Shown piece after piece: positions 9,813 to 26,473 of a stretch of 64,000 nt of DNA (positions are counted from its first letter, which is position 1; every line of letters starts with the position of its first letter). The notes under the pieces are model-generated. The model had not been told where the DNA came from, did no database searches, and was given only the letters and a program-made list of their open reading frames with translations. Origin of the DNA: Vibrio sp. AND4 (GTDB taxonomy: Bacteria > Pseudomonadota > Gammaproteobacteria > Enterobacterales > Vibrionaceae); contig NZ_ABGR01000002.1 of assembly GCF_000171815.1 (NCBI RefSeq), forward strand, positions 124,001-188,000, given 5' to 3'. The translations under genes were made by a program, and so were the position numbers.

Positions 9813-9840
9813 TCCGCAATCAGTAATCTGATAAAAACAG

Positions 9841-9867
9841 AAGGATGCCCAAGTGGCATCCTTTTTT
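9841..9867 (+). terminator. terminator of zwf-pgl-gnd
   Basis: AAGGATGCC (9841-9849), loop CAAGT and GGCATCCTT (9855-9863) form a perfect 9-bp hairpin running into six Ts (9862-9867), starting 28 bases after the gnd stop. Confidence 0.92.
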
Positions 9868-10170
9868 AATTCCTACTCTATGTAAACGTAAAGTGAGCCA
9901 GCGAGTCCTTTTGTATTTCCCGGTAGTGAAGGAGTCTGTGATTCAAATCAGTTAGCCCTTTGATGAACGACCCTGCCGCCAATATGGCAGTGAGAAAGGC
10001 AAAAAAGAACATACGTTGTATTAACTTATTAGGCAGTTTTTAATTAAGATTTATTGTGAGTGGTGTTGCATAAAGGATGTGAAAGCAGTGTTGTGTGTGG
10101 CAAGCAATCAAATAGCTCCCTAACTTTAAGTGGTTTGAATTTTTCACAACTGTTAACACAGGAAACTCTT
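9868..10170. other. intergenic region before the DUF1254 gene
   Basis: About 300 bases with no gene I can support. The frame upstream of the DUF1254 start is open back to 10060 but has neither a ribosome site nor a sensible N-terminus there. A promoter for the DUF1254 gene is expected here, but none stands out. Confidence 0.5.
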
Positions 10171-11691
10171 ATGATAAAGGACTCACTTAAACGTCTCACT
10201 TTACTAACGGGGATGCTGATTTCATCTCCTCTTCTAGCAAATACCAATAACTACAATACAGACATTCCAACCAGTATCATGACGCCTGATACGGTAGAAA
10301 CAAGTATCGGAACTCTTATCTTTAAGGATGGTGTGCCAAGCGAGCAAGCCATGGGTACACTTTATGACAACCTCGATAGGATGAGAGCGACAGAAGTATT
10401 TATGAATGCTGTCCCGATGGCGTCGTTAGAAGCATTACGAATAGGACATGAAAAGATGGGGTTAACGAAATCCAATCAGGTCATGCTGTTTGATAATCTG
10501 ATGGATTCGAACTCTTTATTCCTAACGGGAAACACGGATACCGTCTACGCCTCTGCTTTTCTTGACTTGGAACGTGATGGCCCGACGGTGGTTGAAATCC
10601 CTCCAGGTATGGGACCTACCACCATCAATGATGCATTTTTCCGTTTTGTGACCGATATGGGTGCGGTTGGGCCAGATAAAGGGAAGGGTGGCAAATACCT
10701 TATTTTGCCCCCTAACTACGATGGCTCAGTGCCTGAGGGCTATTATGTCTCTCAATCGACAACTTACGTTAACTGGTTTATCGCAAGAGGTTTTTTGAAA
10801 GATGGTAAAACCGACGCAGCAGTGAATTCGTACCATACTGGCTTGAAGATTTATCCTTTGTCCAAGAAGGATGATCAACCGAAGATGGCATTTACTTCTG
10901 TTAGTGGTAAAGCATTCAATACTATCCATGCCAATAACGAGCACTTCTATGATGAAATCAAAGTGGTGATCGACAAAGAGCCGATTGATTTTATCGATCC
11001 GGAAATGCGTGGTTTGATTGCGGCAATTGGTATTCAAAAAGGTAAGCCGTTTGAACCTGATGCACGAATGCAGAAGATTCTGAAAGATGCTGCTGCGATT
11101 GGGAACGCAACGGCTCGTGCATTGATGTTCAACCCACGCACAGAAAATGCGTACATTTGGGATGATCGCAATTGGAAAACCGCTTTTATCGGCAAAGATT
11201 ACCAATGGCTCATTGATGAGGGCAATGGTGGCCGTAACTTGGACGCGCGTACTTACTTTTTCTATATGGCAACGGTAAACACACCAGCGATGGCGCTTAA
11301 GATGGTTGGTAAAGGCTCTCAGTACGCCATAATTGACAAGACCGCGGAAGGTCAGTTTTTTGATGGCGGAAAGAACTACAAATTGACGCTCCCTTCTAAT
11401 GTGCCAGCGAAGGACTTCTGGTCTGTGGTCGTTTATGATACGCAAACACGCTCAGAGCTTCAAACCAGCCAGCCATTCCCAAGTAAGAATGATAAGCGTA
11501 ATAAGATGATTGAAAACCCTGATGGCTCTGTTGATTTGTACTTCGGGCCAATCGCCCCCGAGGGTAAAGAAGCAAACTGGATTCAAACGGTTCCAAACAA
11601 AGGGTGGTTTAGTCTTTTACGCTTATACGGTCCTCTAGAACCGTGGTACGACGGTTCATGGAAACCAAGTGATATCAGTGAAGTGAAATAA
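10171..11691 (+). CDS. secreted DUF1254/DUF1214 domain protein
   Basis: This exported protein of about 506 residues has an N-terminal DUF1254 domain (about residues 50-190) and a C-terminal DUF1214 domain (about 370-490), with a linker between. The start at 10171 (MIKDSLKRLTLL) is chosen because it has the ribosome site AGGAAA 6 bases upstream and a good signal peptide ending near SSPLLA. The longer frame from 10060 would bury the signal. The family is widespread in marine bacteria and has no settled biochemical role; some members bind or process lipophilic compounds. It is flanked by terminators, so it is probably a single-gene unit. Confidence 0.85.
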   Translation: MIKDSLKRLTLLTGMLISSPLLANTNNYNTDIPTSIMTPDTVETSIGTLIFKDGVPSEQAMGTLYDNLDRMRATEVFMNAVPMASLEALRIGHEKMGLTKSNQVMLFDNLMDSNSLFLTGNTDTVYASAFLDLERDGPTVVEIPPGMGPTTINDAFFRFVTDMGAVGPDKGKGGKYLILPPNYDGSVPEGYYVSQSTTYVNWFIARGFLKDGKTDAAVNSYHTGLKIYPLSKKDDQPKMAFTSVSGKAFNTIHANNEHFYDEIKVVIDKEPIDFIDPEMRGLIAAIGIQKGKPFEPDARMQKILKDAAAIGNATARALMFNPRTENAYIWDDRNWKTAFIGKDYQWLIDEGNGGRNLDARTYFFYMATVNTPAMALKMVGKGSQYAIIDKTAEGQFFDGGKNYKLTLPSNVPAKDFWSVVVYDTQTRSELQTSQPFPSKNDKRNKMIENPDGSVDLYFGPIAPEGKEANWIQTVPNKGWFSLLRLYGPLEPWYDGSWKPSDISEVK

Positions 11692-11720
11692 AGTAACGTA
11701 AGATAGGTAAGTTTAAGATG

Positions 11721-11758
11721 AAAGCCGACCTATTCATGGGTCGGCGTTTTCTTTTTAT
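11721..11758 (+). terminator. terminator of the DUF1254 gene
   Basis: GCCGACC (11724-11730) pairs with GGTCGGC (11739-11745) around a 7-base loop, followed by a T-rich run (TTTTCTTTTTA). Confidence 0.88.
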
Positions 11759-12020
11759 CTCTCTTATCTCTGACCGTTTTATAATTTTAGTATTCTTAGG
11801 CTCTTGCTCTGGCGATAAATGGTCTTGTGGCTTAAATCTTACATCCGTGACCTCTTAATTATGTTGCCTTGGTGGGAGTGAATGAGCCTAATACTTTCCT
11901 ACCAAACCATGCTAATCAGCCTCAAATTCATCTTCTCATGATGTGATCTCACACGTTATCGGCTTGTTAACGGTTGCTATACTTATTTGGCCATAAACAA
12001 AGGAAATATAAGGACGTTCA
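11759..12020. other. intergenic region before the TAXI protein gene
   Basis: About 260 bases, AT-rich, with no supported gene. The small minus-strand ORF at 11936-12118 runs into the TAXI gene and is a shadow. The TAXI promoter should lie in the right half; the ribosome site is the AAGGA cluster just before 12021. Confidence 0.5.
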
Positions 12021-12992
12021 ATGTTAAAGCTCAAGCAAATTGCTGCCGTGGCCTCACTGGCTGCACTAAGTACTAGTTTTTCAGTTTCTGCTAAAGAGGC
12101 CTTCGTGACCATAGGCACGGGCGGTGTAACGGGTGTGTACTACCCAACGGGTGGTGCAATTTGCCGTTTGGTGAATAAATCACGTTCTGATCATGGTATT
12201 CGTTGTTCGGTAGAAAGCACTGGTGGTTCCATTTACAACATCAATACCATTCGAGCAAAAGAGCTAGACCTTGGTATCGCTCAGTCAGACTGGCAGTACC
12301 ATGCTTACAATGGTACAAGCAAGTTTAAAGATGCAGGGCCATTCAAAGAGCTTCGCGCTGTATTCTCTGTCCACCCAGAACCGTTCACTGTTGTGGCTCG
12401 TAAAGATGCCAACATTCAATCATTTGAAGATTTGAAAGGTAAACGCGTTAACATTGGTAACCCTGGTTCTGGTCAACGCGGTACGATGGAAGTATTGATG
12501 AAAGAGTACGGTTGGACGAATGACGATTTCAAACTTGTGTCTGAGTTAAAAGCTTCTGAGCAGTCAAAAGCGCTGTGCGATAATAAGATTGATGCGATGA
12601 TCTACACCGTTGGTCACCCAAGTGGTGCGATTAAAGAAGCGACAACATCGTGTGACAGCAACATTGTAACGGTAGCAGGTAAACAAGTAGATAAACTTGT
12701 TGCTGACAACAGCTTCTACCGCGTTGCAAATGTACCCGGTGGTATGTACCGCGGATCAGAAAGCGATGTGCAAACTTTCGGTGTAGGTGCAACTTTCGTT
12801 TCCTCAACGGCAGTGCCAAACGAAGTTGTTTACAACGTTGTCAAAGCGGTATTTGAAAACTTTGACGATTTCCGTCGTCTACACCCAGCATTCGCCAACT
12901 TGAAGAAAGAAGAAATGGTTAAAGATGGTCTATCAGCACCGCTTCACCCAGGTGCCGAGAAGTACTACAGAGAAGTGGGTCTGATAAAGTAA
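12021..12992 (+). CDS. TAXI-family TRAP transporter solute-binding protein
   Basis: This 323-residue periplasmic protein has a signal peptide cleaved near residue 24 (after FSVSA). The mature N-terminus [20 protein letters not shown] is the hallmark of the TAXI (TRAP-associated extracytoplasmic immunogenic) family, whose known ligands include glutamate and other dicarboxylates. The conserved motif [16 protein letters not shown] lies near residue 148. TAXI proteins usually sit beside a fused 4TM-12TM permease gene; none is present in this window, so it is an orphan. It lies directly upstream of three membrane receptors with periplasmic binding domains, which leaves open a role in sensing as well as uptake. 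Confidence 0.92.
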
Positions 12993-13053
12993 TCCTGTTG
13001 CAAAAATAGGAAATGAGGTGTTGATATAGATCGCGTCATATGTTTCAAGCAAC

Positions 13054-13090
13054 AAAAATGCCATCGTATTTACGGTGGCATTTTTGTAGT
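13054..13090 (+). terminator. terminator of the TAXI gene
   Basis: AAAAATGCCATCGTA (13054-13068) and TACGGTGGCATTTTT (13071-13085) form a long A/T-flanked hairpin about 60 bases past the stop, with T runs on both strands. Confidence 0.88.
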
Positions 13091-13275
13091 TTAGTCAGTG
13101 GTTAGTTTTGATTAAGTTGTGACGATTTTTTGATGACACACTTTGAATATAAAACCGTTTCCAAGTCATATTTTACAGGACAGGTCATTGATATAATGCG
13201 TGTTGAGTTGCATAATATAATTGTGGTTAAAGGGTCTACAAACATTCATTTAATGCCATTGGAGAGCAACAGGAG

Positions 13276-16200
13276 ATGGAACTACCTTCGGCACTTTCGC
13301 GCAAGTTCTCAATAAAGTCTACCATTGGTTGTATGTTTCTAATTACAGCCACTATCACCGCTGCTTTCGCTATCAGTCTACAATACTATTTTGGCAAACA
13401 AACTTCACGAGATTATGTACTGTCAAAGCTCTCTGTCGCTTCGGATCAAGTGAGCGATTATTTACAGCGTGTTGAGAGTAATGCGATCAGCAGTGCACAA
13501 TTGCTCCGGAGTGTGGCGTTATCGACAGACCACACTTTTTCAGAGCAGGAAATTAGAGATATTTTTATTCGAGTCCTAACTGACAACCCTCTTTTCAACA
13601 GTCTTTATTTCGGACTAGATAACGATGATTTTTACCAAGTTATCAACTTGGCGTCTTCTTCTATCGTCAGGAAAAAGCTCGGAGCAGCTGCACTAGAGCG
13701 ATGGGTGATTGTAAAAATTTCGGGGGATCCCGGCTCTAGGGTCAAACAAAGTTATTATTTCACTTCAGAATTTAAGCTTACGAGACAAATCAACGAGATC
13801 AGTGATTATTATCCATCTCGTCGACCTTGGTTTGTAAAAGCTTCACAAGAGTCAGTTTTTAAGACGGCTCCTTATCTCTTCCAAAATTTGAGAACTACCG
13901 GCAAAACATACTCAGTACGCAGCGGGAGAGGCGTCATTGGTATCGATATTGTCTTATCTTCCGTTGAAAATAAGATTGTTCCATTGGAGCTCGGTTTGTT
14001 GCCAAATAGCGGCGCGGAGACATTTATATTTAACCAGAGGGGAGGAGTGATAGCCTCTAATACAAAACTTCAGGATAACATCTTAATTCCCGAGTCAGTT
14101 CCACTAAAACTGACAGAGGAACAAAAAGCGATTATTCAATCGTCACCTTCATTGATTGTATCGAACCAAAATAGTTGGGGGCCTTATGACTATTCACAAT
14201 CAGGTGAACCAATGGGGTATGCTATCGACGTTCTTGCGCTCATTGCACAACAGACGGGTATAGAGTTGAAATATATTAATGGCTTTGACTCTAAAACGCT
14301 ATCAGGCAAATATCAAAAAGGCCACTTGGATATTATTCATTCCGTTGTGGGTGATCCTAAAACATTTGGGGAACGGAGCCTACCGATTTTCAAGAGTTAT
14401 CTTGCTGTTGCAGAGAGGGACACTAAATCTAGTCAGAGAGTTTTACAAGATATAGACACAGAGAACATTGGTATAGTCGCTGGCTTTGGAATGAAACAGT
14501 GGTTATCAGAATATTATCCAACACTCAGTACTATTGAGTTTCCCGGTTTAGACGAGGCAAGAAAGGCACTCGATAGCGGTAAGATTCAATATATCCTCGA
14601 TACTGAACTTACGTTATCCGATACGGATTTTTTAGGCAATAACACACCTCTCAAGATCTCTACATTTAACGAGCGTGAACCTGTTTCATTTCACCTGTTC
14701 ATGAGAGAGAACAATGCTGACTTGCTAGCAATTATCAATCAGGCTATTGGTGAGATTACCCCCAAACAAAGAGAGGCTTTGTCTAGGAAATGGTTGGATG
14801 CTAAATGGCAGCAAGAAGGCGTCTTACCCTACAAAGAAGTGCATCAGTTTGCTGCTCGGCGAGATAAACATAATACTATGGTAAAAATAGAGATAAATGG
14901 TGAATCAAAGTACTTATATATTTCACAGCTAAAATCTCACTTTAGCTCTAGCGACTATTTTGCAGTCCTTATACCAGAAGATATTGTTTCAAGTGCAGTG
15001 GTCGATCATATGTTTAAATCGATAACAGCGACGATGTTCTTGATGGCGACTCTGTGTCCTTTCGTTTGGAATTTTGGCGCGCCAGTTGTCAGGAGAATAA
15101 AAGATCTAGAGAGAGAAACTGCAAAGATTAAAGCTCGTAATTTTAGTGATGTTAGGATTGTCCCTAGCCGTATCGCAGAGGTGTCTGAGTTGTCGCAGTC
15201 AATATGCGAAATGGGGAAGGCAATAGGGTTGCATGAGAAGCGGCAAGAAGAATTTTTAGATGCGATAGTTCAGCTTATTGCTCAAGCTGTCGATGATAAG
15301 TCACCTTATACAGCAGGACATTGTAACCGTGTTCCCGAAATTGCAATGATGCTTGCTGATGCCGCGGAAAAAAGCCAAAAATTAGCCTTTCGCAACTTTG
15401 CCTTCAAGAATGAAGACGAGAAACGTGAATTTAAGATCGCTGCTTGGTTACACGATTGCGGTAAGATTACGACGCCAGAGCATATTGTCGACAAGGGGAC
15501 TAAGCTAGGAGCAAACTATAATCGAATCAATGAGATAAGGACACGTTTCGAGGTTCTCTGGAGAGATGCTGAGATTCACTATTACCAAAGTATTATTGAT
15601 GGAAAAAAGAACCCAGAAGAGTTGTTAGGCCAACTTAATGCACGAAAACTCAGCTTAACTCAGGATTTTGAATTTATTGCCAATGTGAATATCGGTGGTG
15701 AGTCTATGAGTAAGGAGCAGTTAGAGCGTATCAAACAGATAGCGCAGCAAAAGTGGCTAAGGTATTTTGATGACAGCTTAGGTCTTTCACCATTTGAAGA
15801 GACCAAAAGGTCAAAAGAGAAGGTGTCTTTGCCTGCTGTGGAACATTTACTGGCAGATAAACCAGAGCATATTACTCGTAGATTTAGGCCTATAGAGTTT
15901 GACCCAAATCTAGGTATTAAGATGACAGTGCCGGAATATGAATACAATCACGGTGAAATTTACAACCTGTCTATTTCACGAGGTACACTGACAGAAGAGG
16001 AACGTTATAAGATAAATGAGCATGTGATAAGTAGCATTAAGATGCTTGAAGCCTTACCGTTTCCTCCTGAGTTAAGCAAAGTTCCAAGTTACGCATCGAC
16101 ACACCATGAGACTTTAAGAGGGACTGGTTATCCTCGTGGTTTAAAAGCTGAAGACCTTTCGATACTCGATAGAATACTCGCTATTGCCGATATATTCGAA

Positions 16201-16422
16201 GCTTTGACCGCTGCAGATCGGCCTTACAAGAGAGCGAAGCCTGTCAGTGTTGCACTCGATATTATGTATAAGATGGCGTTGGACCAGAATATTGACATAG
16301 ACCTTTTCTTGCTGTTTTTAGAAAGTGGGGTGTATTTGGAATATGCCAATATTTTTCTACCAGACAACCAGAACGATAAGGTTGATATCCGAAAATATTT
16401 CAAAGGTTACGAATTGGTCTGA
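13276..16422 (+). CDS. membrane receptor with split Cache, inserted SBP_bac_3 domain and HD-GYP output (copy 1)
   Basis: This 1048-residue inner-membrane protein has TM1 at 16-39, a periplasmic Cache-like sensor first part at about 40-290, and a complete SBP_bac_3-type solute-binding domain at about 292-512 (begins VSNQNSWGPYDY). The last Cache strands follow (about 525-570), then TM2 (577-600), a HAMP-like linker (600-655) and an extended HD-GYP domain (660-985). Catalytic residues are intact: GHCNRV at 681-686, HDCGK at 726-730, HH at 943-944 and GTGYP at 949-953. About 170 residues separate the HD and GYP halves. HD-GYP domains hydrolyse c-di-GMP or, in some Vibrio enzymes, 3'3'-cGAMP; which applies is unknown. 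The ATG at 13276 follows GGAGAG. It is the most diverged of three tandem paralogues. Confidence 0.9.
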   Translation: MELPSALSRKFSIKSTIGCMFLITATITAAFAISLQYYFGKQTSRDYVLSKLSVASDQVSDYLQRVESNAISSAQLLRSVALSTDHTFSEQEIRDIFIRVLTDNPLFNSLYFGLDNDDFYQVINLASSSIVRKKLGAAALERWVIVKISGDPGSRVKQSYYFTSEFKLTRQINEISDYYPSRRPWFVKASQESVFKTAPYLFQNLRTTGKTYSVRSGRGVIGIDIVLSSVENKIVPLELGLLPNSGAETFIFNQRGGVIASNTKLQDNILIPESVPLKLTEEQKAIIQSSPSLIVSNQNSWGPYDYSQSGEPMGYAIDVLALIAQQTGIELKYINGFDSKTLSGKYQKGHLDIIHSVVGDPKTFGERSLPIFKSYLAVAERDTKSSQRVLQDIDTENIGIVAGFGMKQWLSEYYPTLSTIEFPGLDEARKALDSGKIQYILDTELTLSDTDFLGNNTPLKISTFNEREPVSFHLFMRENNADLLAIINQAIGEITPKQREALSRKWLDAKWQQEGVLPYKEVHQFAARRDKHNTMVKIEINGESKYLYISQLKSHFSSSDYFAVLIPEDIVSSAVVDHMFKSITATMFLMATLCPFVWNFGAPVVRRIKDLERETAKIKARNFSDVRIVPSRIAEVSELSQSICEMGKAIGLHEKRQEEFLDAIVQLIAQAVDDKSPYTAGHCNRVPEIAMMLADAAEKSQKLAFRNFAFKNEDEKREFKIAAWLHDCGKITTPEHIVDKGTKLGANYNRINEIRTRFEVLWRDAEIHYYQSIIDGKKNPEELLGQLNARKLSLTQDFEFIANVNIGGESMSKEQLERIKQIAQQKWLRYFDDSLGLSPFEETKRSKEKVSLPAVEHLLADKPEHITRRFRPIEFDPNLGIKMTVPEYEYNHGEIYNLSISRGTLTEEERYKINEHVISSIKMLEALPFPPELSKVPSYASTHHETLRGTGYPRGLKAEDLSILDRILAIADIFEALTAADRPYKRAKPVSVALDIMYKMALDQNIDIDLFLLFLESGVYLEYANIFLPDNQNDKVDIRKYFKGYELV

Positions 16423-16702
16423 TGCTTGTTTTTATAATTTGGTAAGGTTCAATAAATATTTTTATTTTTTTCGACATAAGGAGTGTTTCTTCAAATTGCT
16501 TTAGCAAAGCTTGAAAGCGAACGTAACGAATTGATCGCAACTTCGTCATGACTATTTTATTGCTTGAAAGTGTCCTTTTGCTCGATATACGACGGAGGTC
16601 TCTGAAAAAATTAACACAGATTTAAAAAAATTCGTTTAATAGACTATCTTGATAGATGGCGCCGCTGCGTTTGCTATAAAAGCCACCGGAGGGCTTTATT
16701 AC
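16423..16702. other. intergenic spacer before receptor copy 2
   Basis: These 280 bases contain a segment around 16584-16615 (ending GTCTCTGAAAA) that resembles the equivalent place before copy 3 (20050-20075). The duplication unit therefore seems to include its own upstream region and probably its own promoter. Confidence 0.45.
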
Positions 16703-19700
16703 ATGAAGGTTGAATCTTGTACCCCTCGTAAATTTTCGATTAAATTTACTATAGGAAGTTTATTTGTTATTGCTACGGCAGTGGTTGCAGTGCTTGGGCT
16801 CGGGATGCAATATTACTTCGGTAAACAAATGTCAGAGGAACATATTCTAACTCGATTAACCATGAAGGCTAAAGACGTCAGTAACTATATCTACCAAATT
16901 GACGCCAGAGCTACCAGCAGTGCGGGTATTTTAAAAAGCGTTGCTGATTTTAGTGATTCTGAGCTGAATGAATCCGAAATCAGGCGAGTGTTTATCCAAA
17001 CTCTACTCGATAATCCCATGTTTTACAGTATCTATTTTGCCACTGAAAACGAATATTTCTTCCAAGTTATCAATTTAGAATCGTCTCCTGAGGTACGAGG
17101 GAAGATAGTCGCAAGAGCAGACGAGCGTTGGGCCATCATCAGGATCAAAGGTGACGGCAAAGCGCGAATAAGACAAACGATGTATTATTCGCAATCGCTA
17201 GAGTTAATCCGTCAAACCGAACACAGAAGTCACTATTACCCGTCCCGGCGACCTTGGTTTGTCGGTGCTTCATCGGAGCATGTTTACAAAACCGATCCTT
17301 ATCTCTTCCAGTATCTAAAAATCGCAGGGCAGACCTATTCTGTGCGAAGTAACCTTGCTGTTATTGGTGTAGATACCGTGCTGTCGTCATTGAGTGAAAA
17401 GATCAGCGCTACTGAGCTTGGAATGAAGAAAGACGACAGTGTTGAAGCCTTTATTTTTAAGTCCAATGGTGAAGTTATCGCATCCAGCAAAGAAGCTTTC
17501 AACGAAGTAGATATCCCTCATTCATCGCTATTGGAACTGAGCGAACAACAAAGGTCTTTACTGGGCGACCGATCGCTTGTGGTTTCGAATCAAAACGACT
17601 GGGGGCCCTATGATTATAATCAGAGCGGCAAACCCGGTGGTTATGTTGTTGATGTGCTCAACCTGATTTCACAGAAAACGGGCATGGTATTGGAGTTCGT
17701 AAATGGTTTTAACTCTACAGAGTTAGAAAAGAAATATCGTAAAGGTGATATTGATATCCTCCAGCCTGTATTGGGCTCACCCCCAGAATTAGGTATTAAG
17801 AGTGATCCACTGTTTATCGGGCAGCTTGCCATTGCGGCTAAGACAAAGAACCCTCTGCCGTTATCACTCAATGAGTTGAGTGAAGAAAGTATTGGCGTTG
17901 TGGGTGGTTTTGGCATGAAGGAGTGGCTACTTGAACGTTATCCAACGCTGAATATTGTCGAACAGCCAAACCTTGATGTTGCTAAGCGAGCACTTTATTT
18001 GGGAGCCATTCAGTACCTAGTAGACAGTTATTTAACCATGGTTGATGTGAAGCGATTAGTTAAGATAACTGATATTTATGTGGGTGAGCTCGATGCGCCA
18101 CCTCTTGAATTCTCACTGTTTATGAAAGAGAAAGACAAAGATGTGGTTGAGCTTATTAACCAAGCTATTGCGGGTATATCACCCGAGCAAAAATCGGCAT
18201 TAAGAGAAAAATGGCTGCAGCCGAACCAATGGAGAGGTAATTTTGTTCCTTATCCAGAGGTGTATACGCAAGTACGCCAAAAAGACAAGCATGGCACGAT
18301 GAGTGAGGTAAATATTGAAGGTGAGCATCGATTTCTTTACATCACCAAGTTGCCGTCTAATCGCGGAGCAAGTGATTACCTCGCGGTGCTTATTCCAAAC
18401 CAAGTAGTTACAGATGCCGTTATCACTCGATTATCCAAGGCTATTGCATTTACCTCTATCGTAATGGTGTGTTTATTTCCATTCGCATGGAAAGTGGGGG
18501 CACCTATTGTTCGCCCAATTGTGGCCCTGCGAAAAGAAACCATCAAAATCAAAGACCGCCAGTTTGATAAGCTCGTTCCGGTAGAAACACGTATCAAGGA
18601 GGTGTCCGGTTTATCCGACTCAGTAACCGCAATGGTACATGAGATTCAGCATCATGAAAGGCAACAACAAGAGTTTGTGGAAGCTTTTATACGCCTTATT
18701 GCTCAAGCGATCGATGATAAGTCACCTTATACCGCAGGGCATTGTAATCGTGTACCGGAAATAGGTTTGATGCTGGCTGAGGCAGCAGAGAGGTGTGACA
18801 CTGGTAGGTTTAAAGACTTCAAATTTAACAATGACGATGAACGACGTGAATTTCGCATTGCTGCCTGGCTGCACGATTGTGGCAAAATCACCACGCCAGA
18901 GCACATAGTGGACAAGGGCACTAAGTTAGAAGCCAACTACAATCGTATCAATGAAATTCGCACTCGTTTCGAAGTGCTAAGACGCGATGCCGAAGTCATC
19001 ATGTGGAAAGCGATATCAACAGGTGAGCTGTCCAAAGAAGAGGCACAGGCTAATTTCGAACAGCGAGTTAAGCAGTTGGATGAGGACTTCCGATTTGTAG
19101 CAAACGCCAATGTGGGTGGTGAGTTCATGAGTGACGATAAGATCGAACGAATCAAACAGATCGCCCAGCAAACGTGGCTACGTCATTATGATGATCGCCT
19201 TGGCCTTTCTCCGTTTGAAGAAATGATTAAGCCAAAATCAGACATGACGTTGCCAGTGGTCGAAAACCTTTTGGCGGATAAGCCTGACCATATTATAGAG
19301 CGCGTTCGCCCGATGGAATTCGCGCCAGAGCATGGAATACAGGTGCAAGTACCGGAACACCAATACAACTTGGGTGAAGTGTACAACCTGACCATTTCAC
19401 GTGGTACGTTAACGCCGGAAGACCGCTTTAAGATAAACGAGCATATGATCAGCGGCATCAAAATGCTTGGTGCACTGCCATTTCCTCCGGAGTTAAGCAA
19501 TGTGCCACGTTATGCTTCAACTCACCATGAGACGCTGAAAGGCACAGGCTACCCACGTCGATTAAGTGCCGAAGATTTGTCGATCCCTGAACGTATTTTG
19601 GTTATTGCTGATATTTTTGAGGCGTTAACCGCAGGTGACCGACCATACAAGAAAGCGAAGCCAGTCAGTGTTGCTATCGATATCATGTACAAGATGGCAG

Positions 19701-19876
19701 TGGACGAGCATCTGGATATGGACTTGTTTTTGTTGTTCTTAGAAAGCGGGGTTTACCGTGAATATGCGAGCATTTTTATGCCAGCGGAACAGGTTGATGA
19801 GGTGGATATTGAAAAATACCTAAAAGAAAAATCGTCAGATGCTTCTAAAGGTCGAAACACACATCAGACACCATGA
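16703..19876 (+). CDS. membrane receptor with split Cache, inserted SBP_bac_3 domain and HD-GYP output (copy 2)
   Basis: This 1057-residue paralogue of the gene at 13276 has the same order: TM1 (about 20-42), Cache first part, inserted SBP_bac_3 domain opening VSNQNDWGPYDY, Cache last strands, TM2, HAMP-like linker, extended HD-GYP. HDCGK and GTGYP are both intact. The frame is open back to a TTG at 16649, but I place the start at the ATG at 16703. GGAGG lies about 10 bases before it, and this start gives the same 1057-residue length as copy 3. The last 930 bases of the output domain are almost identical to copy 3, although the sensor halves have clearly diverged. It would be a periplasmic ligand sensor that lowers a cyclic dinucleotide. 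Confidence 0.9.
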   Translation: MKVESCTPRKFSIKFTIGSLFVIATAVVAVLGLGMQYYFGKQMSEEHILTRLTMKAKDVSNYIYQIDARATSSAGILKSVADFSDSELNESEIRRVFIQTLLDNPMFYSIYFATENEYFFQVINLESSPEVRGKIVARADERWAIIRIKGDGKARIRQTMYYSQSLELIRQTEHRSHYYPSRRPWFVGASSEHVYKTDPYLFQYLKIAGQTYSVRSNLAVIGVDTVLSSLSEKISATELGMKKDDSVEAFIFKSNGEVIASSKEAFNEVDIPHSSLLELSEQQRSLLGDRSLVVSNQNDWGPYDYNQSGKPGGYVVDVLNLISQKTGMVLEFVNGFNSTELEKKYRKGDIDILQPVLGSPPELGIKSDPLFIGQLAIAAKTKNPLPLSLNELSEESIGVVGGFGMKEWLLERYPTLNIVEQPNLDVAKRALYLGAIQYLVDSYLTMVDVKRLVKITDIYVGELDAPPLEFSLFMKEKDKDVVELINQAIAGISPEQKSALREKWLQPNQWRGNFVPYPEVYTQVRQKDKHGTMSEVNIEGEHRFLYITKLPSNRGASDYLAVLIPNQVVTDAVITRLSKAIAFTSIVMVCLFPFAWKVGAPIVRPIVALRKETIKIKDRQFDKLVPVETRIKEVSGLSDSVTAMVHEIQHHERQQQEFVEAFIRLIAQAIDDKSPYTAGHCNRVPEIGLMLAEAAERCDTGRFKDFKFNNDDERREFRIAAWLHDCGKITTPEHIVDKGTKLEANYNRINEIRTRFEVLRRDAEVIMWKAISTGELSKEEAQANFEQRVKQLDEDFRFVANANVGGEFMSDDKIERIKQIAQQTWLRHYDDRLGLSPFEEMIKPKSDMTLPVVENLLADKPDHIIERVRPMEFAPEHGIQVQVPEHQYNLGEVYNLTISRGTLTPEDRFKINEHMISGIKMLGALPFPPELSNVPRYASTHHETLKGTGYPRRLSAEDLSIPERILVIADIFEALTAGDRPYKKAKPVSVAIDIMYKMAVDEHLDMDLFLLFLESGVYREYASIFMPAEQVDEVDIEKYLKEKSSDASKGRNTHQTP

Positions 19877-20163
19877 TGAAGAAAGTTTGGATACTTCGTT
19901 CTTTCTGTCAGGAGGGAGTGTCGCGAATGCCTATTGAGATGTACACGCAAGACTAGAAAGTGCATAAGTGCTGTAACTAACATTCAAATTAAGCGATGGT
20001 CAGCAAGACAGGAACTGCTCTTTTAGTTGCGTAAAGTGCACCTTTCTCATATTCGACGCAAGTCTCTGAGAAAAAGAAGTTTAGACATTTAAAAAATGTT
20101 GTAGGCTAGATAGATATCTCAGCGCAGTTGTGTGTTGTTGCAGCTATCATAGGGCACTTTTAC
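19877..20163. other. intergenic spacer before receptor copy 3
   Basis: These 287 bases carry no gene. Around 20053-20075 (CGACGCAAGTCTCTGAGAAAA) the sequence echoes the spacer before copy 2, so each receptor probably has its own promoter. Confidence 0.45.
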
Positions 20164-23100
20164 GTGATGATTAAATCTGGTACCCCCCGTAAATTTTCGA
20201 TTAAATCCACAATCGGAAGTTTATTTGTTATTACTACGGCAGTGGCGGCACTGCTCGGACTTGGGATGCAGTATTACTTCGCTAAACAGATGTCGGAGGA
20301 ACATATCCTGACTCGATTAACCATGAAGGCTAAAGACGTCAGTACCCATATCCGCCAAATTGATGCAAGTGCTACCAGCAGCGTTGAAGTCTTACGGAGC
20401 GTTGTTGATTTTAGTGATTCTGATCTGAATGAATCCGAAATCAAGCGGGTGTTTATCCAAACTCTGCTCGATAATCCTGTTTTTTACAGTATCTATTTTG
20501 CCAATAAGAAAGAACACTTTTTCCAAGTTATCAACTTGGAATCGTCCCCTGAAGTTCGAGAGAAGCTAGGCGCTAAAGTTAATGAGCGTTGGGTCATCAT
20601 CAACATCAAAGGTGAAGGCAAAGCTCGAATGCGACAAACGACGTATTATTCGAATTCGCTAGAGTTAGTCCGCGAAACAGAACAGAAAAGTAATTTTTAT
20701 CCATCTCGTCAACCTTGGTTTGTCAACGCATCATCGGACAGCGTTCACAAAACCGATCCTTACCTCTTCCAGCACCAAAAAATCACAGGACAGTCTTATT
20801 CTGTGAGCAGTAAAGTTGCGGTTGTTGGTGTAGATACTGTGTTGTCGTCATTGAGTGAAAAGATCGGTGCTACTGAGCTTGGGATGAAGAAAGACGACAG
20901 TGTCGAAGCGTTTATTTTTAATTCTCGTGGTGAGGTTATCGCATCCAGTATTAATGCTTTACACGACGTGGAGATCCCTCATTCATCGCGATTGGAACTG
21001 AGTGAACAACAAAAGGCTTTATTAGGCGACCGAGAGTTTGTGGTTTCTAACCAAAACGACTGGGGGCCCTATGATTACACTCAGAGCGGTAAGCCCGGTG
21101 GTTATGCTGTTGATGTTCTCAACCTGATTTCGCAGAAAACGACTATGAGATTTGGGTTTGTTAATGGCTTTAGTTCGAGAGAGTTAGAAAAGAAATATCG
21201 CGAAGGGGAGATTGATATCCTCCAGCCTGTACTGGGCTCACCTTTGGGTTTAGGTATTAAGAGTGATCCACTGTTTATCGGGCAACTTGCGATTGCGGCT
21301 AAGACAACGAACCCATTGCCGTCGTCACTCAATGAATTGGGTGATGAAAGTGTTGGCGTTGTGTCTGGTTTTGGCATGAAAGAATGGCTTCTTGAACGCT
21401 ATCCAACACTGAATATTGTCGAACAGCCTAATCTCGATCTAGCTAAGCGAGCGCTACACGAAGGGGATATTCAGTATCTGGTAGACAGTTATTTAACTAT
21501 GGTTGAGATGAAACGTTTGGTGAAGCTAACCAATATTTATGTCGCTGTACTCGACGCGCCACCTCTTGAATTCTCACTGTTTATGAAAGAGAAAGACAAA
21601 GATGTGGTTGCGTTGGTTAACCAAGCCATCGCGGGCATTTCACCCGATCAAAAAGTGGCGCTAGAGAAGAAGTGGCTGAGGCCTAACCTATGGACAGGGA
21701 GTTTCGTTCCTTATCCAGAGGTCTATGAGCAAGCACGCCAAAGAGACAAGCACGACACGATGATTAAAGTAGATATTGAAGGTGAGCATCGTTTTCTTTA
21801 CATCACAGAGTTGCAATCTACCCGTCGAACAATTGATTACTTTGCGGTGCTCGTTCCCGATCAGGTAGTAACTGATGCTGTCATCAGTCGATTATCCGAG
21901 GCTATTGCGTTTACTTCTATCGTGATGGTGTGTTTATTTCCATTCGCATGGAAAGTGGGTTCGCACATTGTTCGTCCAATTTTGGCGTTGCAGAAAGAAA
22001 CCGTCAAAATCAAAGACCGCCAGTTTGATAAGCTCGTTCCGGTAGAAACACGTATCAAGGAGGTATCCGATTTATCCGACTCAGTAACCGCGATGATACA
22101 AGAGATTCAGCACCATGAACGGCAACAAGAAGAGTTTGTGGAAGCCTTTATACGCCTTATTGCTCAAGCGATCGATGACAAGTCACCTTATACCGCAGGA
22201 CATTGTAATCGTGTGCCAGAGATAGGTTTGATGCTGGCTGAGGCAGCAGAAAGGTGCGACTCCGGTAGGTTCAAAGACTTCAAATTTAATAATGACGATG
22301 AACGACGTGAATTTCGCATTGCTGCCTGGCTGCACGATTGTGGCAAAATCACCACGCCAGAGCACATAGTGGACAAGGGCACTAAGTTAGAAGCCAACTA
22401 CAATCGTATCAATGAAATTCGCACTCGTTTCGAAGTGCTAAGACGCGATGCCGAAGTCATCATGTGGAAAGCGATATCAACAGGTGAGCTGTCCAAAGAA
22501 GAGGCACAGGCTAATTTCGAACAGCGAGTTAAGCAGTTGGATGAGGACTTCCGATTTGTAGCAAACGCCAATGTGGGTGGTGAGTTCATGAGTGACGATA
22601 AGATCGAACGAATCAAACAGATCGCCCAGCAAACGTGGCTACGTCATTATGATGATCACCTTGGCCTTTCTCCGTTTGAAGAAATGATTAAGTCAAAATC
22701 AGACATGACGTTGCCAGTGGTCGAAAACCTTTTGGCGGATAAGCCTGACCATATTATAGAGCGCGTTCGCCCGATGGAATTCGCGCCAGAGCATGGGATC
22801 CAGGTACAAGTACCGGAACACCAATACAACTTGGGTGAAGTGTACAACCTGACCATTTCACGTGGTACGTTAACGCCGGAAGACCGCTTTAAGATAAACG
22901 AGCATATGATCAGCGGCATCAAAATGCTTGGTGCACTGCCATTTCCTCCGGAGTTAAGCAATGTGCCACGTTATGCTTCAACTCACCATGAGACGCTGAA
23001 AGGCACAGGCTACCCACGTCGATTAAGTGCCGAAGATTTGTCGATCCCTGAACGTATTTTGGTTATTGCTGATATTTTTGAGGCGTTAACCGCAGGTGAC

Positions 23101-23337
23101 CGACCATATAAGAAAGCGAAGCCAGTCAGTGTTGCTATCGATATCATGTACAAGATGGCAGTGGACGAGCATCTGGATATGGACTTGTTTTTGTTGTTCT
23201 TAGAAAGTGGGGTTTACCGTAAATATGTGAATAAGTTCATGCCAGCGGAACAGGTTGATGAGGTGGATATTGAAAAATACTTAAAAGCGAAATCACCAGA
23301 TGTATCTAAATCTCGATGTCACGATTTTGTAGGTTAA
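20164..23337 (+). CDS. membrane receptor with split Cache, inserted SBP_bac_3 domain and HD-GYP output (copy 3)
   Basis: This is the third tandem paralogue, 1057 residues from a GTG at 20164. That start has AGGG at 20151-20154 with a 9-base spacer and aligns with the start of copy 2; the ATG at 20167 is the alternative. The frame is also open to 20128 without support. Its domains match copy 2, and HDCGK, HH and GTGYP are intact. The binding domain differs from copy 2 at scattered positions (for example TMRFGFVNGFSSREL against GMVLEFVNGFNSTEL), which could change the ligand. The output half from about base 22291 is near-identical to copy 2. The gene ends 102 bases before the prp regulator. Confidence 0.9.
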   Translation: MMIKSGTPRKFSIKSTIGSLFVITTAVAALLGLGMQYYFAKQMSEEHILTRLTMKAKDVSTHIRQIDASATSSVEVLRSVVDFSDSDLNESEIKRVFIQTLLDNPVFYSIYFANKKEHFFQVINLESSPEVREKLGAKVNERWVIINIKGEGKARMRQTTYYSNSLELVRETEQKSNFYPSRQPWFVNASSDSVHKTDPYLFQHQKITGQSYSVSSKVAVVGVDTVLSSLSEKIGATELGMKKDDSVEAFIFNSRGEVIASSINALHDVEIPHSSRLELSEQQKALLGDREFVVSNQNDWGPYDYTQSGKPGGYAVDVLNLISQKTTMRFGFVNGFSSRELEKKYREGEIDILQPVLGSPLGLGIKSDPLFIGQLAIAAKTTNPLPSSLNELGDESVGVVSGFGMKEWLLERYPTLNIVEQPNLDLAKRALHEGDIQYLVDSYLTMVEMKRLVKLTNIYVAVLDAPPLEFSLFMKEKDKDVVALVNQAIAGISPDQKVALEKKWLRPNLWTGSFVPYPEVYEQARQRDKHDTMIKVDIEGEHRFLYITELQSTRRTIDYFAVLVPDQVVTDAVISRLSEAIAFTSIVMVCLFPFAWKVGSHIVRPILALQKETVKIKDRQFDKLVPVETRIKEVSDLSDSVTAMIQEIQHHERQQEEFVEAFIRLIAQAIDDKSPYTAGHCNRVPEIGLMLAEAAERCDSGRFKDFKFNNDDERREFRIAAWLHDCGKITTPEHIVDKGTKLEANYNRINEIRTRFEVLRRDAEVIMWKAISTGELSKEEAQANFEQRVKQLDEDFRFVANANVGGEFMSDDKIERIKQIAQQTWLRHYDDHLGLSPFEEMIKSKSDMTLPVVENLLADKPDHIIERVRPMEFAPEHGIQVQVPEHQYNLGEVYNLTISRGTLTPEDRFKINEHMISGIKMLGALPFPPELSNVPRYASTHHETLKGTGYPRRLSAEDLSIPERILVIADIFEALTAGDRPYKKAKPVSVAIDIMYKMAVDEHLDMDLFLLFLESGVYRKYVNKFMPAEQVDEVDIEKYLKAKSPDVSKSRCHDFVG

Positions 23338-23409
23338 ATTGTCGACAATTTTCTTGATTGTCAACACATATATAGTCTATTTTGTATTCAGGTAAACAAG
23401 TTGTTGACA
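23338..23409 (+). promoter_or_regulatory. three TTGTC/TTGACA half-palindromes, candidate GntR operator and promoter
   Basis: ATTGTCGACAAT (23338-23349) is a perfect palindrome fitting the TnGTnnnACnA-like pattern of FadR-subfamily GntR sites. TTGTCAACA (23358-23366) and TTGTTGACA (23401-23409) are related near-palindromes. They lie just upstream of the GntR gene and could be its autoregulatory operators. TTGTCA (23358) could also serve as a -35 box with an AT-rich -10 near 23381. Confidence 0.45.
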
Positions 23410-23439
23410 CTTTAACATCTCACCGAGATTGCCTCGAAT

Positions 23440-24159
23440 ATGAATGCCAATTGGAAATTTCCTTATAAAGCACGTGTTTCTGACAGAGAACATACCAAGT
23501 CTTCATCACTGGCTGAATCTCTAGTAGAGGCGATCGTCAGTGGTGACATTGAACCGGGCAGTAAAATATCAGAGCCTGAATTAGCCAAAAAACATCATGT
23601 AAGTCGAGGTCCTTTGCGTGAAGCCTTGATGCGCCTTGAAGGACTTGGCTTAATTGAACGTATTCCTCATGTCGGTGCTCGTGTTATCACTTTCTCGCCA
23701 GAAAAACTCATCGAATTGTATTCAGTCCGTGAAGCATTAGAGGGCATGGCGGCAAGACTTGCCGCTCGCTATATCACTCAAGAAGAGTTAGTGAGCTTGG
23801 AAATGCTATTGTTGACACATTCCAAACACATCGACGAAGTCGAAGGCGCTTCTTACTTCCACCAGCATGGTGATTTCGACTTCCATTATCGAATTATTCA
23901 AGCAAGCCGAAACAGCAAGCTTATCTCTTTGCTTTGCGACGAGCTGTATCATTTGTTGCGCATGTATCGTTACCAATCACCACGCGCGCAATCTCGTCCT
24001 AATGAAGCACTCAACGAACACAAATTCATTCTGCAAGCGATTCGCAACCGTGATGAAGAGCTGGCAGAAATGCTGATGAGAAGGCACATCTCAGGTAGCC
24101 GAAAACTTATCGAATTACAGTTTCTACATTCTGAAAGTAAAGATAGAGAACAAGACTAG
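23440..24159 (+). CDS. GntR/FadR-type (FCD) regulator of the prp locus
   Basis: This 239-residue cytosolic DNA-binding protein has a winged helix-turn-helix at about residues 25-90 (ISEPELAKKHHVSRGPLREAL is the recognition region). An FCD effector domain follows at about 95-225, with the metal-binding His/Asp pattern around DFDFHYRII. It lies 12 bases upstream of prpB in the same direction. The likely role is a repressor of the methylcitrate genes that responds to a pathway intermediate, replacing the sigma-54 activator PrpR of enteric bacteria. The effector is inferred from context only. The ATG at 23440 has only a weak ribosome site. Confidence 0.88.
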   Translation: MNANWKFPYKARVSDREHTKSSSLAESLVEAIVSGDIEPGSKISEPELAKKHHVSRGPLREALMRLEGLGLIERIPHVGARVITFSPEKLIELYSVREALEGMAARLAARYITQEELVSLEMLLLTHSKHIDEVEGASYFHQHGDFDFHYRIIQASRNSKLISLLCDELYHLLRMYRYQSPRAQSRPNEALNEHKFILQAIRNRDEELAEMLMRRHISGSRKLIELQFLHSESKDREQD

Positions 24160-24171
24160 AAGGAAATTGTC

Positions 24172-25068
24172 ATGAGCTTATCTCCGGGGGCGAAGTTCAG
24201 ACTCGCCATTGAGCAAAACAATCCGCTGCAGATCGTCGGCACCATCAACCCATACTGCGCCATGATGGCGAAAAACTTGGGTCACCAAGCTATCTATTTG
24301 TCGGGTGGCGGCATCGCTAACGCATCATACGGTTTGCCAGATCTTGGTATTACGACACTGAACGATGTTTTGGTGGATGTCGACCGTATCACAAACGCGT
24401 GTGATTTGCCGTTATTGGTTGATATCGATACCGGTTTTGGTGGCGCATTTAACATCGCACGCACTATCAAGGCGATGGAAAAAGCGGGCGCGGCGGCTGT
24501 GCATATGGAAGACCAAGTGGCGCAGAAGCGCTGTGGTCATCGTCCAAACAAAGCGATTGTTAGCCAACAAGAAATGGTTGATCGAGTGAAAGCGGCGGTG
24601 GATGCACGTAATGACGAGAGCTTTGTCATTATGGCTCGCACTGATGCGCTAGCGGTGGAAGGCATGGATAGCGCGATTGAACGAGCGATTGCATGTGTGG
24701 AAGCGGGCGCAGACATGATCTTCCCAGAGGCAATGAATCAGCTAGACCAATATCAACAGTTCTCGACAGCGGTCGAAGACGCAACAGGGAAGCACGTGCC
24801 GATTCTTGCCAACATTACTGAGTTTGGACAAACGCCGTTATACGGTTGTGAAGAGTTAGCCCAATCCAACGTCGACATGGTTTTGTACCCATTGAGCGCA
24901 TTCCGTGCGATGAACAAAGCTGCTGAGATGGTATATAAACACTTGCTAGAAGTTGGCAACCAAGAAGCGCTGCTTGATTCAATGCAGACACGAAAAGAGC
25001 TGTATGAGCACCTTAATTACCACGACTACGAGAATAAGTTAGACAAGCTGTTCTCCGAGGGTAAATAA
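24172..25068 (+). CDS. prpB: 2-methylisocitrate lyase
   Basis: This 298-residue cytosolic enzyme of the isocitrate lyase/PEP mutase family cleaves 2-methylisocitrate to pyruvate and succinate, the last step of the methylcitrate cycle. The catalytic loop KRCGH is at residues 119-123, and Mg-binding DIDTGFGG lies near residue 84. A good ribosome site (AAGGAAA) precedes the ATG. It starts 12 bases after the GntR regulator gene and is followed 130 bases later by prpC. The length is normal for the family. Confidence 0.97.
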
Positions 25069-25198
25069 GGTCAATAAAGAAACAAACGGAAGCCCAAGAC
25101 AAATACTATTTAAGAATCTCTGATCCAATAACGTGAAACTTGTCTGATTAAAAAGAGCCCATTAAGAGAGCCAATTCAGACAGAAAAGGAGTTCAACA

Positions 25199-26341
25199 AT
25201 GCCTCATTCTGTAGAAAAAAAAGCTGAGATAGACGGCGCAGGTCTACGCGGTCAAAGCGCGGGAAGCACAGCTTTATGCACTGTCGGTAAAACGGGGACA
25301 GGTCTAACGTATCGTGGTTACGATATTACGGACTTGGCAAATCATGCTCAATTTGAAGAGGTGGCGCATTTGCTGTTACGCGGTCACTTACCTAATCAAC
25401 AAGAGCTAGACGCCTACAAGACACATCTATTGAGCTTGCGCGGCTTACCAGCGGAGCTTAAGCAAGCGTTAGAGCTGATTCCTGCTGATGCTCACCCGAT
25501 GGATGTTATGCGCACAGGTTGCTCTATGCTGGGTAATTTAGAGCAAGAAATGGACTTTGAGCAACAGCTCCATGCTACTGAGCGAATGCTGGCGCTTTTC
25601 CCTGCCATCATCTGTTACTGGTATCGATTCAGCCACGATGGTGTGCGAATCAAAACGCACGATAACAGTGAAGACTGCATTGGCGGCTACTTCCTAAAAC
25701 TGCTTACCGATAAAGCACCAAGCGAAACGCACAAAAAGGTGATGCACTGTTCTTTGATTCTTTATGCAGAGCATGAGTTTAATGCCTCAACATTTGCAGC
25801 GCGCGTGTGTGCTTCTACGCTTTCTGATCTTCATTCTTGTATTACGGCTGCTATCGGTACGTTACGTGGTCCACTTCATGGCGGTGCGAACGAAGCGGCG
25901 ATGGAGATGATTCAAGATTGGCAAACGCCAGATGAAGCAGAAGCCAATATTCTGCAAATGCTAGAGAACAAAGACAAAATCATGGGCTTTGGTCATGCGA
26001 TTTACCGCGAAAGTGACCCTCGTAATGCACTGATCAAGCGTTGGTCAGAAGCGTTATCAAAAGAGGTGGGTGACACGCATCTTTACGCGGTTTCTGAGCG
26101 TGTGGAATCCGTCATGAAGCGTGAGAAAGGTCTGTTCTGTAATGCCGATTTCTTCCATGCTTCGGCTTACCACTTCATGGATATTCCGACCAAATTGTTT
26201 ACGCCAATCTTTGTGATGAGTCGACTGACAGGTTGGGCGGCGCACGTGTATGAACAACGCGCGAACAATCGAATCATTCGCCCAAGTGCGGATTATACCG
26301 GACCGGATCATCAAGACTGGGTGCCAATCGAACAACGCTAG
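25199..26341 (+). CDS. prpC: 2-methylcitrate synthase
   Basis: This 380-residue enzyme of the citrate synthase family condenses propionyl-CoA with oxaloacetate. Seen are the CoA/oxaloacetate motifs GPLHGGANEAAMEM (near residue 224) and GFGHAIYRESDPRN (near residue 262), and the C-terminal RPSADYTGP arginine segment. The shorter length and the Ala/Glu-rich dimer region fit the PrpC type and not the GltA hexamer. The ribosome site AAAGGAG is clear. A large hairpin lies just past the stop, before acnD. Confidence 0.96.
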   Translation: MPHSVEKKAEIDGAGLRGQSAGSTALCTVGKTGTGLTYRGYDITDLANHAQFEEVAHLLLRGHLPNQQELDAYKTHLLSLRGLPAELKQALELIPADAHPMDVMRTGCSMLGNLEQEMDFEQQLHATERMLALFPAIICYWYRFSHDGVRIKTHDNSEDCIGGYFLKLLTDKAPSETHKKVMHCSLILYAEHEFNASTFAARVCASTLSDLHSCITAAIGTLRGPLHGGANEAAMEMIQDWQTPDEAEANILQMLENKDKIMGFGHAIYRESDPRNALIKRWSEALSKEVGDTHLYAVSERVESVMKREKGLFCNADFFHASAYHFMDIPTKLFTPIFVMSRLTGWAAHVYEQRANNRIIRPSADYTGPDHQDWVPIEQR

Positions 26342-26346
26342 CGCGT

Positions 26347-26393
26347 GACGCCTCTTTGTGAGTTTTGTCTTGATGGCAATCACAAGGGGCGTC
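26347..26393 (+). promoter_or_regulatory. large hairpin between prpC and acnD
   Basis: GACGCC...TTTGTGA (26347-26361) pairs with TCACAAGGGGCGTC (26380-26393), with a two-base bulge region, around an 18-base loop. It starts 6 bases after the prpC stop. Only a short T-rich tail follows, so it is more likely a processing/stability hairpin or a leaky terminator than a full stop. Confidence 0.5.
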
Positions 26394-26473
26394 TCTTTCA
26401 CCGCGAATCCATTTCAAAAACAGTATCGCGGTGCGTTCAGGCACAAGATGTACACTAAAGTGGAAGCAAGCCG

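Follow-up and report, generated by a model that had tools for sequence, protein, structure and literature searches.

Can a solute-binding protein become part of the receptor that it would act on, and where in the sensor would it then sit? The question is raised by a locus of Vibrio sp. AND4 (NCBI RefSeq assembly GCF_000171815.1, contig NZ_ABGR01000002.1, positions 124,001 to 188,000 of the forward strand; this whole stretch of 64,000 nucleotides is called the window here, and coordinates are counted from its first letter). Three successive open reading frames (ORFs) on its + strand, named P1, P2 and P3 in window order, encode large predicted receptors with an HD-GYP output domain (Table 1). 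A sequence-only reading of the window had proposed that each receptor carries a complete solute-binding protein (SBP) domain of the SBP_bac_3 type inserted into a Cache-like periplasmic sensor, that this would make a two-signal receptor for lowering a cyclic dinucleotide, and that the three copies suggest ligand diversification.

A binding-protein domain inserted within one Cache-like sensor

The strongest evidence for nesting is a set of 13 SBP-free homologues from V. kasasachensis, Marinomonas and one further lineage, which retain both Cache flanks and have 11–22 residues at the site where P1 has 255. The SBP-free protein of V. kasasachensis, P0109, aligns to residues 8–262 (55 %) and 512–1046 (58 %) of P1 with nine residues between the two segments, and its match to the dCache_1 profile of Pfam spans the junction (residues 45–309, profile positions 8–229 of 240, below cut-off). 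With the flanks adjacent in SBP-free homologues and a rooted tree in agreement (see below), comparison of the sequences upholds the proposed insertion within one Cache-like sensor. The insert site is predicted to fall in the later part of the sensor, after strand 2 and before the helix of the membrane-near Cache half.

Structure prediction, which had been suggested as a check, agreed as far as it went. The full-length model of P1 has the expected strands on either side of the SBP, those after it being predicted at 535–540, 543–552 and 560–567, preceded by a helix at 520–526. Fold searches with the full model were silent for or against a Cache, since the rows shown were SBP chains, and all 50 rows of one search fell within residues 267–534.

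The order of elements is the same in P1, P2 and P3: a first transmembrane segment (TM1), the first part of the Cache-like sensor, the complete SBP_bac_3 domain, the last Cache strands, a second transmembrane segment (TM2), a HAMP-like linker and HD-GYP. The tandem array and this domain order were borne out by ORFs, Pfam and alignment, and the positions of the shared WGPYDY motif and of the post-SBP strands agree with the sequence-only reading. Pfam matched SBP_bac_3 above gathering score in all three (at residues 293–508 in P1; Table 1), as well as HD_5 and HD. By hydropathy, TM1 is seen in each protein; TM2 peaks at 1.57 in P1, under the cut-off of 1.6 that P2 and P3 exceed. The HAMP match was below the gathering score of 25 bits in P2 (16.4 bits) and P3 (20.0 bits) and unreported for P1. 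The proteins are predicted to be inner-membrane receptors. For P2 and P3 the listed TTG start is probably upstream of the true one; internal ATG codons fit the alignment better (Table 1). The host genome (4.26 Mb, 91 % complete) yielded no additional full-length copy.

Gain and loss of the SBP

A tree of the HD-GYP part was built from 53 of the 94 aligned rows (409 columns, LG+G4 without mixture), including nine of the 13 SBP-free rows and leaving out near-copies and rows on long branches, e.g. P0058, L080, L067, L068, L070–L073 and L075. Its root was placed on six SBP-free proteins in which scans find GAF plus HD-GYP and a Cache-like sensor, dCache_1 being matched in five. The rooted tree needs four changes of SBP state, the same number over the 5–95 % bootstrap range, and the most economical history, which we consider likely, is one gain and three losses. 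The loss groups are P0109 within Vibrio (support 100/99), Marinomonas (100/100) and a family coded f192 (100/100). Constraining the SBP-free rows into one group was rejected (p 2.6e-99), and the same three groups appeared in a quick tree of 80 rows with long branches included. Repeated gain of an SBP at one site is unlikely.

The SBP-free groups have fared differently. The HD pair is retained in P0109 and the five Marinomonas rows, together with the Arg and Asp of the Cache motif described below. In f192, the HD pair and much of the Cache motif are gone from four rows, and YQWFYN stands at the motif positions in two more. For L065–L068 (G503, G441, G459 and G529), in which the SBP is absent, the HD pair broken and the Cache motif eroded, it is possible that enzyme activity was lost after the SBP. 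The outgroup proteins (L012, L013, L015, L017, L019 and L079) share a Cache-like sensor and the same split HD-GYP output with P1–P3, but they lack an SBP and carry a GAF domain before HD-GYP, which P1–P3 do not have; gain of the SBP may have been accompanied by loss of the GAF domain.

Three entries required separate treatment. L094 (V. maerlii), which its match length had suggested to be SBP-free, is a tandem pair of SBP-bearing genes. L077 was initially placed in the outgroup but carries an SBP, and the tree was rebuilt without it there. L100 was left uncounted, no ORF of >457 amino acids (aa) having been extracted.

What the two sensor parts may bind

The published amino-acid motif of dCache_1AA sensors comprises Y121, R126, W128, Y129, Y144 and D173 of PctA (PMC9796306). 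A profile built from 12 first parts of the Cache matched chemoreceptor chains at E values of 0.003–0.008, among these PctA and PctB (0.005–0.008), and aligned Y-R-W-Y, Y and D with their counterparts. P1 and P2 read YRWFYD, keeping the motif with Phe at the place of Y129, a residue that makes no ligand contact in PctA, and their Cache is predicted to bind an amino acid. The strict motif occurs in 57 of the 69 SBP-bearing rows (66 distinct). P3 reads FQWFYD and departs from the motif, differing from P2 at two positions. The Phe at the 178 position occurs in other members too, and at the key Arg position P3 alone among the SBP-bearing rows is without Arg. In the amine receptor PacA, the residue that corresponds most closely to this Arg is a Gln (PMC10104139). 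On these residues, the Cache of P3 is predicted to bind no amino acid, or another ligand such as an amine. P3 is a natural test case for the amino-acid motif.

The SBP domain matches the SBP_bac_3 profile over its whole length and has a type II SBP fold. Sequence and fold searches place it nearest to solved sensor SBPs (RmcA, BvgS, EvgS) and to glutamine or arginine binders, the closest solved fold being 7ejg (RmcA). Conserved positions of the form SN...W.P.D and NG (Ser296, Asn297, Trp301, Pro303, Asp305, Asn335 and Gly336, invariant or nearly so) suggest a retained pocket. Given the motif in P1 and P2 and the complete SBP fold, a two-signal receptor is plausible.

A receptor with two inputs and its alternatives

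We lean towards a reading in which a dCache_1-like sensor, predicted to bind an amino acid in P1 and P2, and the inserted SBP would jointly control the cytoplasmic HD-GYP domain via TM2 and the HAMP-like linker. The SBP would close on its own ligand and push the Cache strands leading into TM2, acting in cis as free NspS acts on MbaA in trans. The Cache would still work by itself, given that SBP-free relatives have persisted with their motifs intact. The array might bring several inputs to one pathway, with gene conversion keeping the P2 and P3 enzymes alike.

Several observations weigh against this reading. The dCache_1 profile was matched only ahead of the SBP in P2 and P3, was unreported by Pfam for P1, and stayed below gathering score in all members scanned (P2, P3, P0109, P0002 and two Marinomonas proteins); we therefore call the domain dCache_1-like, while the protein database's own domain lists give PF02743 for P0109, P0002 and some others. 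In the two Marinomonas proteins, i.e. two of the three SBP-free proteins scanned, the match ends before the junction, and this lowered our confidence slightly. The Cache match to PctA is weak, branches with starred support alone force three changes of SBP state, not four, and P2 and P3 have diverged under purifying selection. The HD-GYP part of the P1 model has low predicted local distance difference test (pLDDT) values of 37–44 at residues 731–750 and 32–43 at 861–910.

The outgroup Caches have most of the amino-acid motif, which is therefore inherited and not peculiar to this family. This counts against our reading and fits an explanation that we regard as unlikely, namely that the SBP is the sole real sensor and the Cache a structural stalk transmitting SBP closure to TM2, with the motif as an inherited leftover. 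The SBP is complete, its nearest solved relatives include sensor SBPs, and BvgS and EvgS function without a Cache. Such a leftover is harder to reconcile with the retention of each motif position in 68–69 of the 69 SBP-bearing rows, and with the persistence in Vibrio (P0109) and Marinomonas of SBP-free forms in which Arg, Asp and the HD pair are intact.

A further difficulty concerns the SBP itself. Amino-acid SBPs have a carboxylate Arg after a TpeR motif, and this residue has no clear counterpart in P1–P3: no Arg of P3 aligns at its place against 7ejg and 3h7m, and P1 has an Arg nearby, in GERS, where the alignment register is unsure. Together with the loss of the SBP about three times while the remainder was retained, this would suit a quite unlikely scheme in which the Cache is the sole sensor and the SBP, binding no ligand, serves as a spacer or dimer contact. 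That scheme has to contend with the retention of the SBP in 39 composites of 33 genomes, with the near-invariance of the seven SBP residues listed above, and with a ratio of non-synonymous to synonymous substitution rates (dN/dS) of 0.17 for the SBP between P2 and P3, the lowest of the three sensor parts.

The HD-GYP output

The proposed HD-GYP output downstream of the sensor is confirmed in the alignments, where the HD pair, HHExxxGxGYP and the metal-ligand set are intact in P1–P3 and the metal-ligand positions are present in 87–93 of 93 rows. The third-metal Glu is replaced by Tyr (Tyr678) in 85 of the 93 rows, as in V-cGAP3, and two metals are therefore predicted. The domain is likely to be a phosphodiesterase, with cyclic di-GMP (c-di-GMP) and cyclic GMP-AMP (cGAMP) as candidate substrates. 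The nearest solved HD-GYP domains by sequence are V-cGAP3 (5z7c), which also shares KSPYTAGH, and PmGH (4mcw). The aligned chains of both differ in lacking a 155-residue insert that P1 has between VDKGTKL and RGTLTEEER (window 15511–15975, with equivalents in P2 and P3), and that is also found in aligned relatives with other sensors, e.g. the Spirochaeta protein P0058.

Nine V. cholerae HD-GYP proteins have been tested, most of them 400–500 aa long; the large HAMP-containing VCA0895 (981 aa) is reported to have no intact HD motif and to be inactive (PMC4212101). This precedent, although without an intact HD motif, and the loss of the HD pair in four rows of one SBP-free lineage could point to proteins that are degenerate, or that are cyclic-dinucleotide receptors instead of enzymes. 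We consider this very unlikely for P1–P3, in which the metal-ligand positions are intact; the HD pair is absent from only 4 of the 94 aligned rows.

Tandem copies and probable gene conversion

P1 is 54 % identical to P2 and 53 % to P3, and synonymous sites are saturated between P1 and P2. The sensor DNA of P2 and P3 is 82–83 % identical (65–68 % at fourfold sites), and their catalytic halves share a homogenised 900-bp tract with seven mismatches, in which dS drops from about 0.4–0.6 to 0.03–0.05 before divergence resumes at the C-terminal tail. This bounded step in divergence fits the pattern of gene conversion. V. jasicida copy b and V. harveyi are split in much the same way, with 74 % identity in the first Cache part, 70 % in the SBP, 80 % in the last Cache part and 93–95 % in HD-GYP. 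Pairs of SBP-bearing genes are also present in genome G387, V. jasicida and V. maerlii.

Positive selection on the sensor parts was considered and found no support: dN/dS between P2 and P3 is 0.17–0.40 and gives no sign of it. The suggestion of ligand diversification is upheld only in part, through the two motif positions, the key Arg among them, at which P2 and P3 differ.

Relation to known systems

Sensor SBPs without a Cache are known from BvgS and EvgS, which resemble P1–P3 in sequence matches of their SBP domains and have tandem SBPs joined to a transmembrane segment and a histidine kinase. In RmcA of P. aeruginosa, as is proposed for P1–P3, an SBP_bac_3 periplasmic sensor controls a c-di-GMP enzyme, but the SBP stands alone at the N-terminus with no Cache around it and the output is GGDEF-EAL. 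According to a 2022 review, SBP_bac_3, in RmcA, is the only family of the PBP clan studied in c-di-GMP networks (PMC8846402). PctA-type dCache_1AA sensors share the weak Cache alignment and, with P1 and P2, the Y, R, W, aromatic, Y and D positions; they belong to chemoreceptors with an uninterrupted dCache, whereas the later half is split by the SBP in P1–P3. In LuxP–LuxQ the periplasmic portion of a signalling protein is the target of a periplasmic binding protein. The same is described for NspS–MbaA (PMC8079147). Both pairs are separate proteins working in trans, whereas P1–P3 fuse binding protein and receptor covalently, one nested in the other. Insertion into a dCache_1 domain has a parallel in alpha2delta-1, where a whole VWA domain is inserted (PMC9901441); that insert splits the amino-acid motif of a eukaryotic channel subunit, whereas the SBP of P1–P3 follows the motif.

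We tentatively propose, as a possibility short of a firm expectation, a built-in-partner class in which an amino-acid Cache took up an SBP in its membrane-near PAS sheet and became a cis two-input gate on cyclic-dinucleotide breakdown. The SBP would be a droppable cassette, and tandem copies would share converted enzyme halves and vary only in their sensors. As natural relatives lost the binding protein only, the contribution of each sensor could be measured on natural proteins.

Distribution of the layout

The whole composite (Cache-SBP-Cache) was sought with a profile of 17 sensors at thresholds of 1e-60 for the order, 1e-25 for the class and 1e-60 for the phylum. It was found in at least 33 of 197 genomes of the order (at least 39 proteins), at least 5 of 369 of the class and at least 11 of 398 of the phylum, the host genome being counted each time; these counts are lower bounds because the samples overlap, the thresholds differ and at most three or six candidates per genome were scored. 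Among the 39 order-level composites no output domain other than HD-GYP was found: 38 have HHExxxGxGYP and the remaining one matches the HD-GYP part. In the protein database, among the best 120 of 190 sensor relatives of P0109, the other 119 all carry PF00497. In-frame stop codons were seen inside some genome-search matches (G146:C70, G377:C38, G429:C23 and others).

The layout occurs in eight of 13 genomes sampled from the genus of the window and in other marine genera; its ligands would thus feed further signals into the c-di-GMP or cGAMP network of such bacteria. Proteins with the layout in Vibrio, Photobacterium, Shewanella and Moritella carry generic names only. The sequence-only reading had named many characterised homologues as what would tell against it; homologues are many, and no characterised one was found in the papers searched. 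No description of the layout was found in the literature searched, although tables S1 and S2 of PMC8846402 may list it, and a search for HD_5 with SBP_bac_3 returned one review only. The arrangement is new and the domains are known; the family is common in Vibrio, no characterised member of it was found, and no new domain class is involved.

Table 1. Receptor genes, sensor and output parts, and the near-identical tract in the window
Feature	Coordinates	Strand	Remarks
P1, receptor 1	13276..16422	+	1048 aa; ORF listing, Pfam, own-genome search
P1 Cache, before insert (residues 40–262)	13393..14061	+	Amino-acid motif positions Y178 R183 W185 F186 Y200 D224
P1 nested SBP_bac_3 (residues 282–511)	14119..14808	+	
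P1 Cache, last helix and strands after insert (residues 517–567)	14824..14976	+	Adjoins first part in SBP-free homologues
P1 HD-GYP (residues 660–1043)	15253..16404	+	155-residue insert 746–900; Pfam, alignments
P2, receptor 2	16649..19876	+	1075 aa from TTG; likely start ATG 16703
P2 Cache, before insert	16820..17488	+	dCache_1 63–299, E 7.1e-5, below cut-off
P2 nested SBP_bac_3	17576..18220	+	Pfam 310–524, E 1.1e-9
P2 Cache, after insert	18245..18397	+	Alignment
P2 HD-GYP	18674..19825	+	Pfam, alignment
P2 side of near-identical 900-bp tract	18827..19726	+	7 mismatches in 900
P3, receptor 3	20128..23337	+	1069 aa from TTG; likely start ATG 20167
P3 Cache, before insert	20281..20949	+	dCache_1 59–281, E 0.0016, below cut-off
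P3 codon for Gln195	20710..20712	+	Amino-acid motif Arg in 68/69 SBP-bearing rows
P3 nested SBP_bac_3	21043..21678	+	Pfam 306–517, E 3e-8
P3 Cache, after insert	21706..21858	+	Alignment
P3 HD-GYP	22135..23286	+	Pfam, alignment
P3 side of near-identical 900-bp tract	22288..23187	+	Same tract

Neighbouring genes

Downstream of the array (window 23440–29083) lie a GntR regulator and genes that we take to be prpB, prpC and acnD-like genes of the 2-methylcitrate cycle; PrpC, PrpB and AcnD are about 99 % identical to those of V. rotiferianus. One or two SBP-HD-GYP genes precede GntR/prp relatives in V. rotiferianus, V. genomosp. F10 and G387, with matches to GntR, PrpB, PrpC and AcnD in the first two and to GntR and PrpB in G387, where the locus ends.

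No Rfam match was found in window 9700–26500, and promoter-like sites were rarer than in shuffled sequence. Just upstream (window 12021–12992) is a gene for a solute-binding protein of the TAXI family of tripartite ATP-independent periplasmic (TRAP) transporters. It was considered, with a DUF1254 gene likewise upstream, as a clue to the ligand, but neither had a match in 22 related loci (flanks up to 5 kb, some ended by contig ends), and no link is therefore claimed. A 36-bp near-perfect inverted repeat ending in a T run (window 13052–13087) is possibly the terminator of the TAXI gene.

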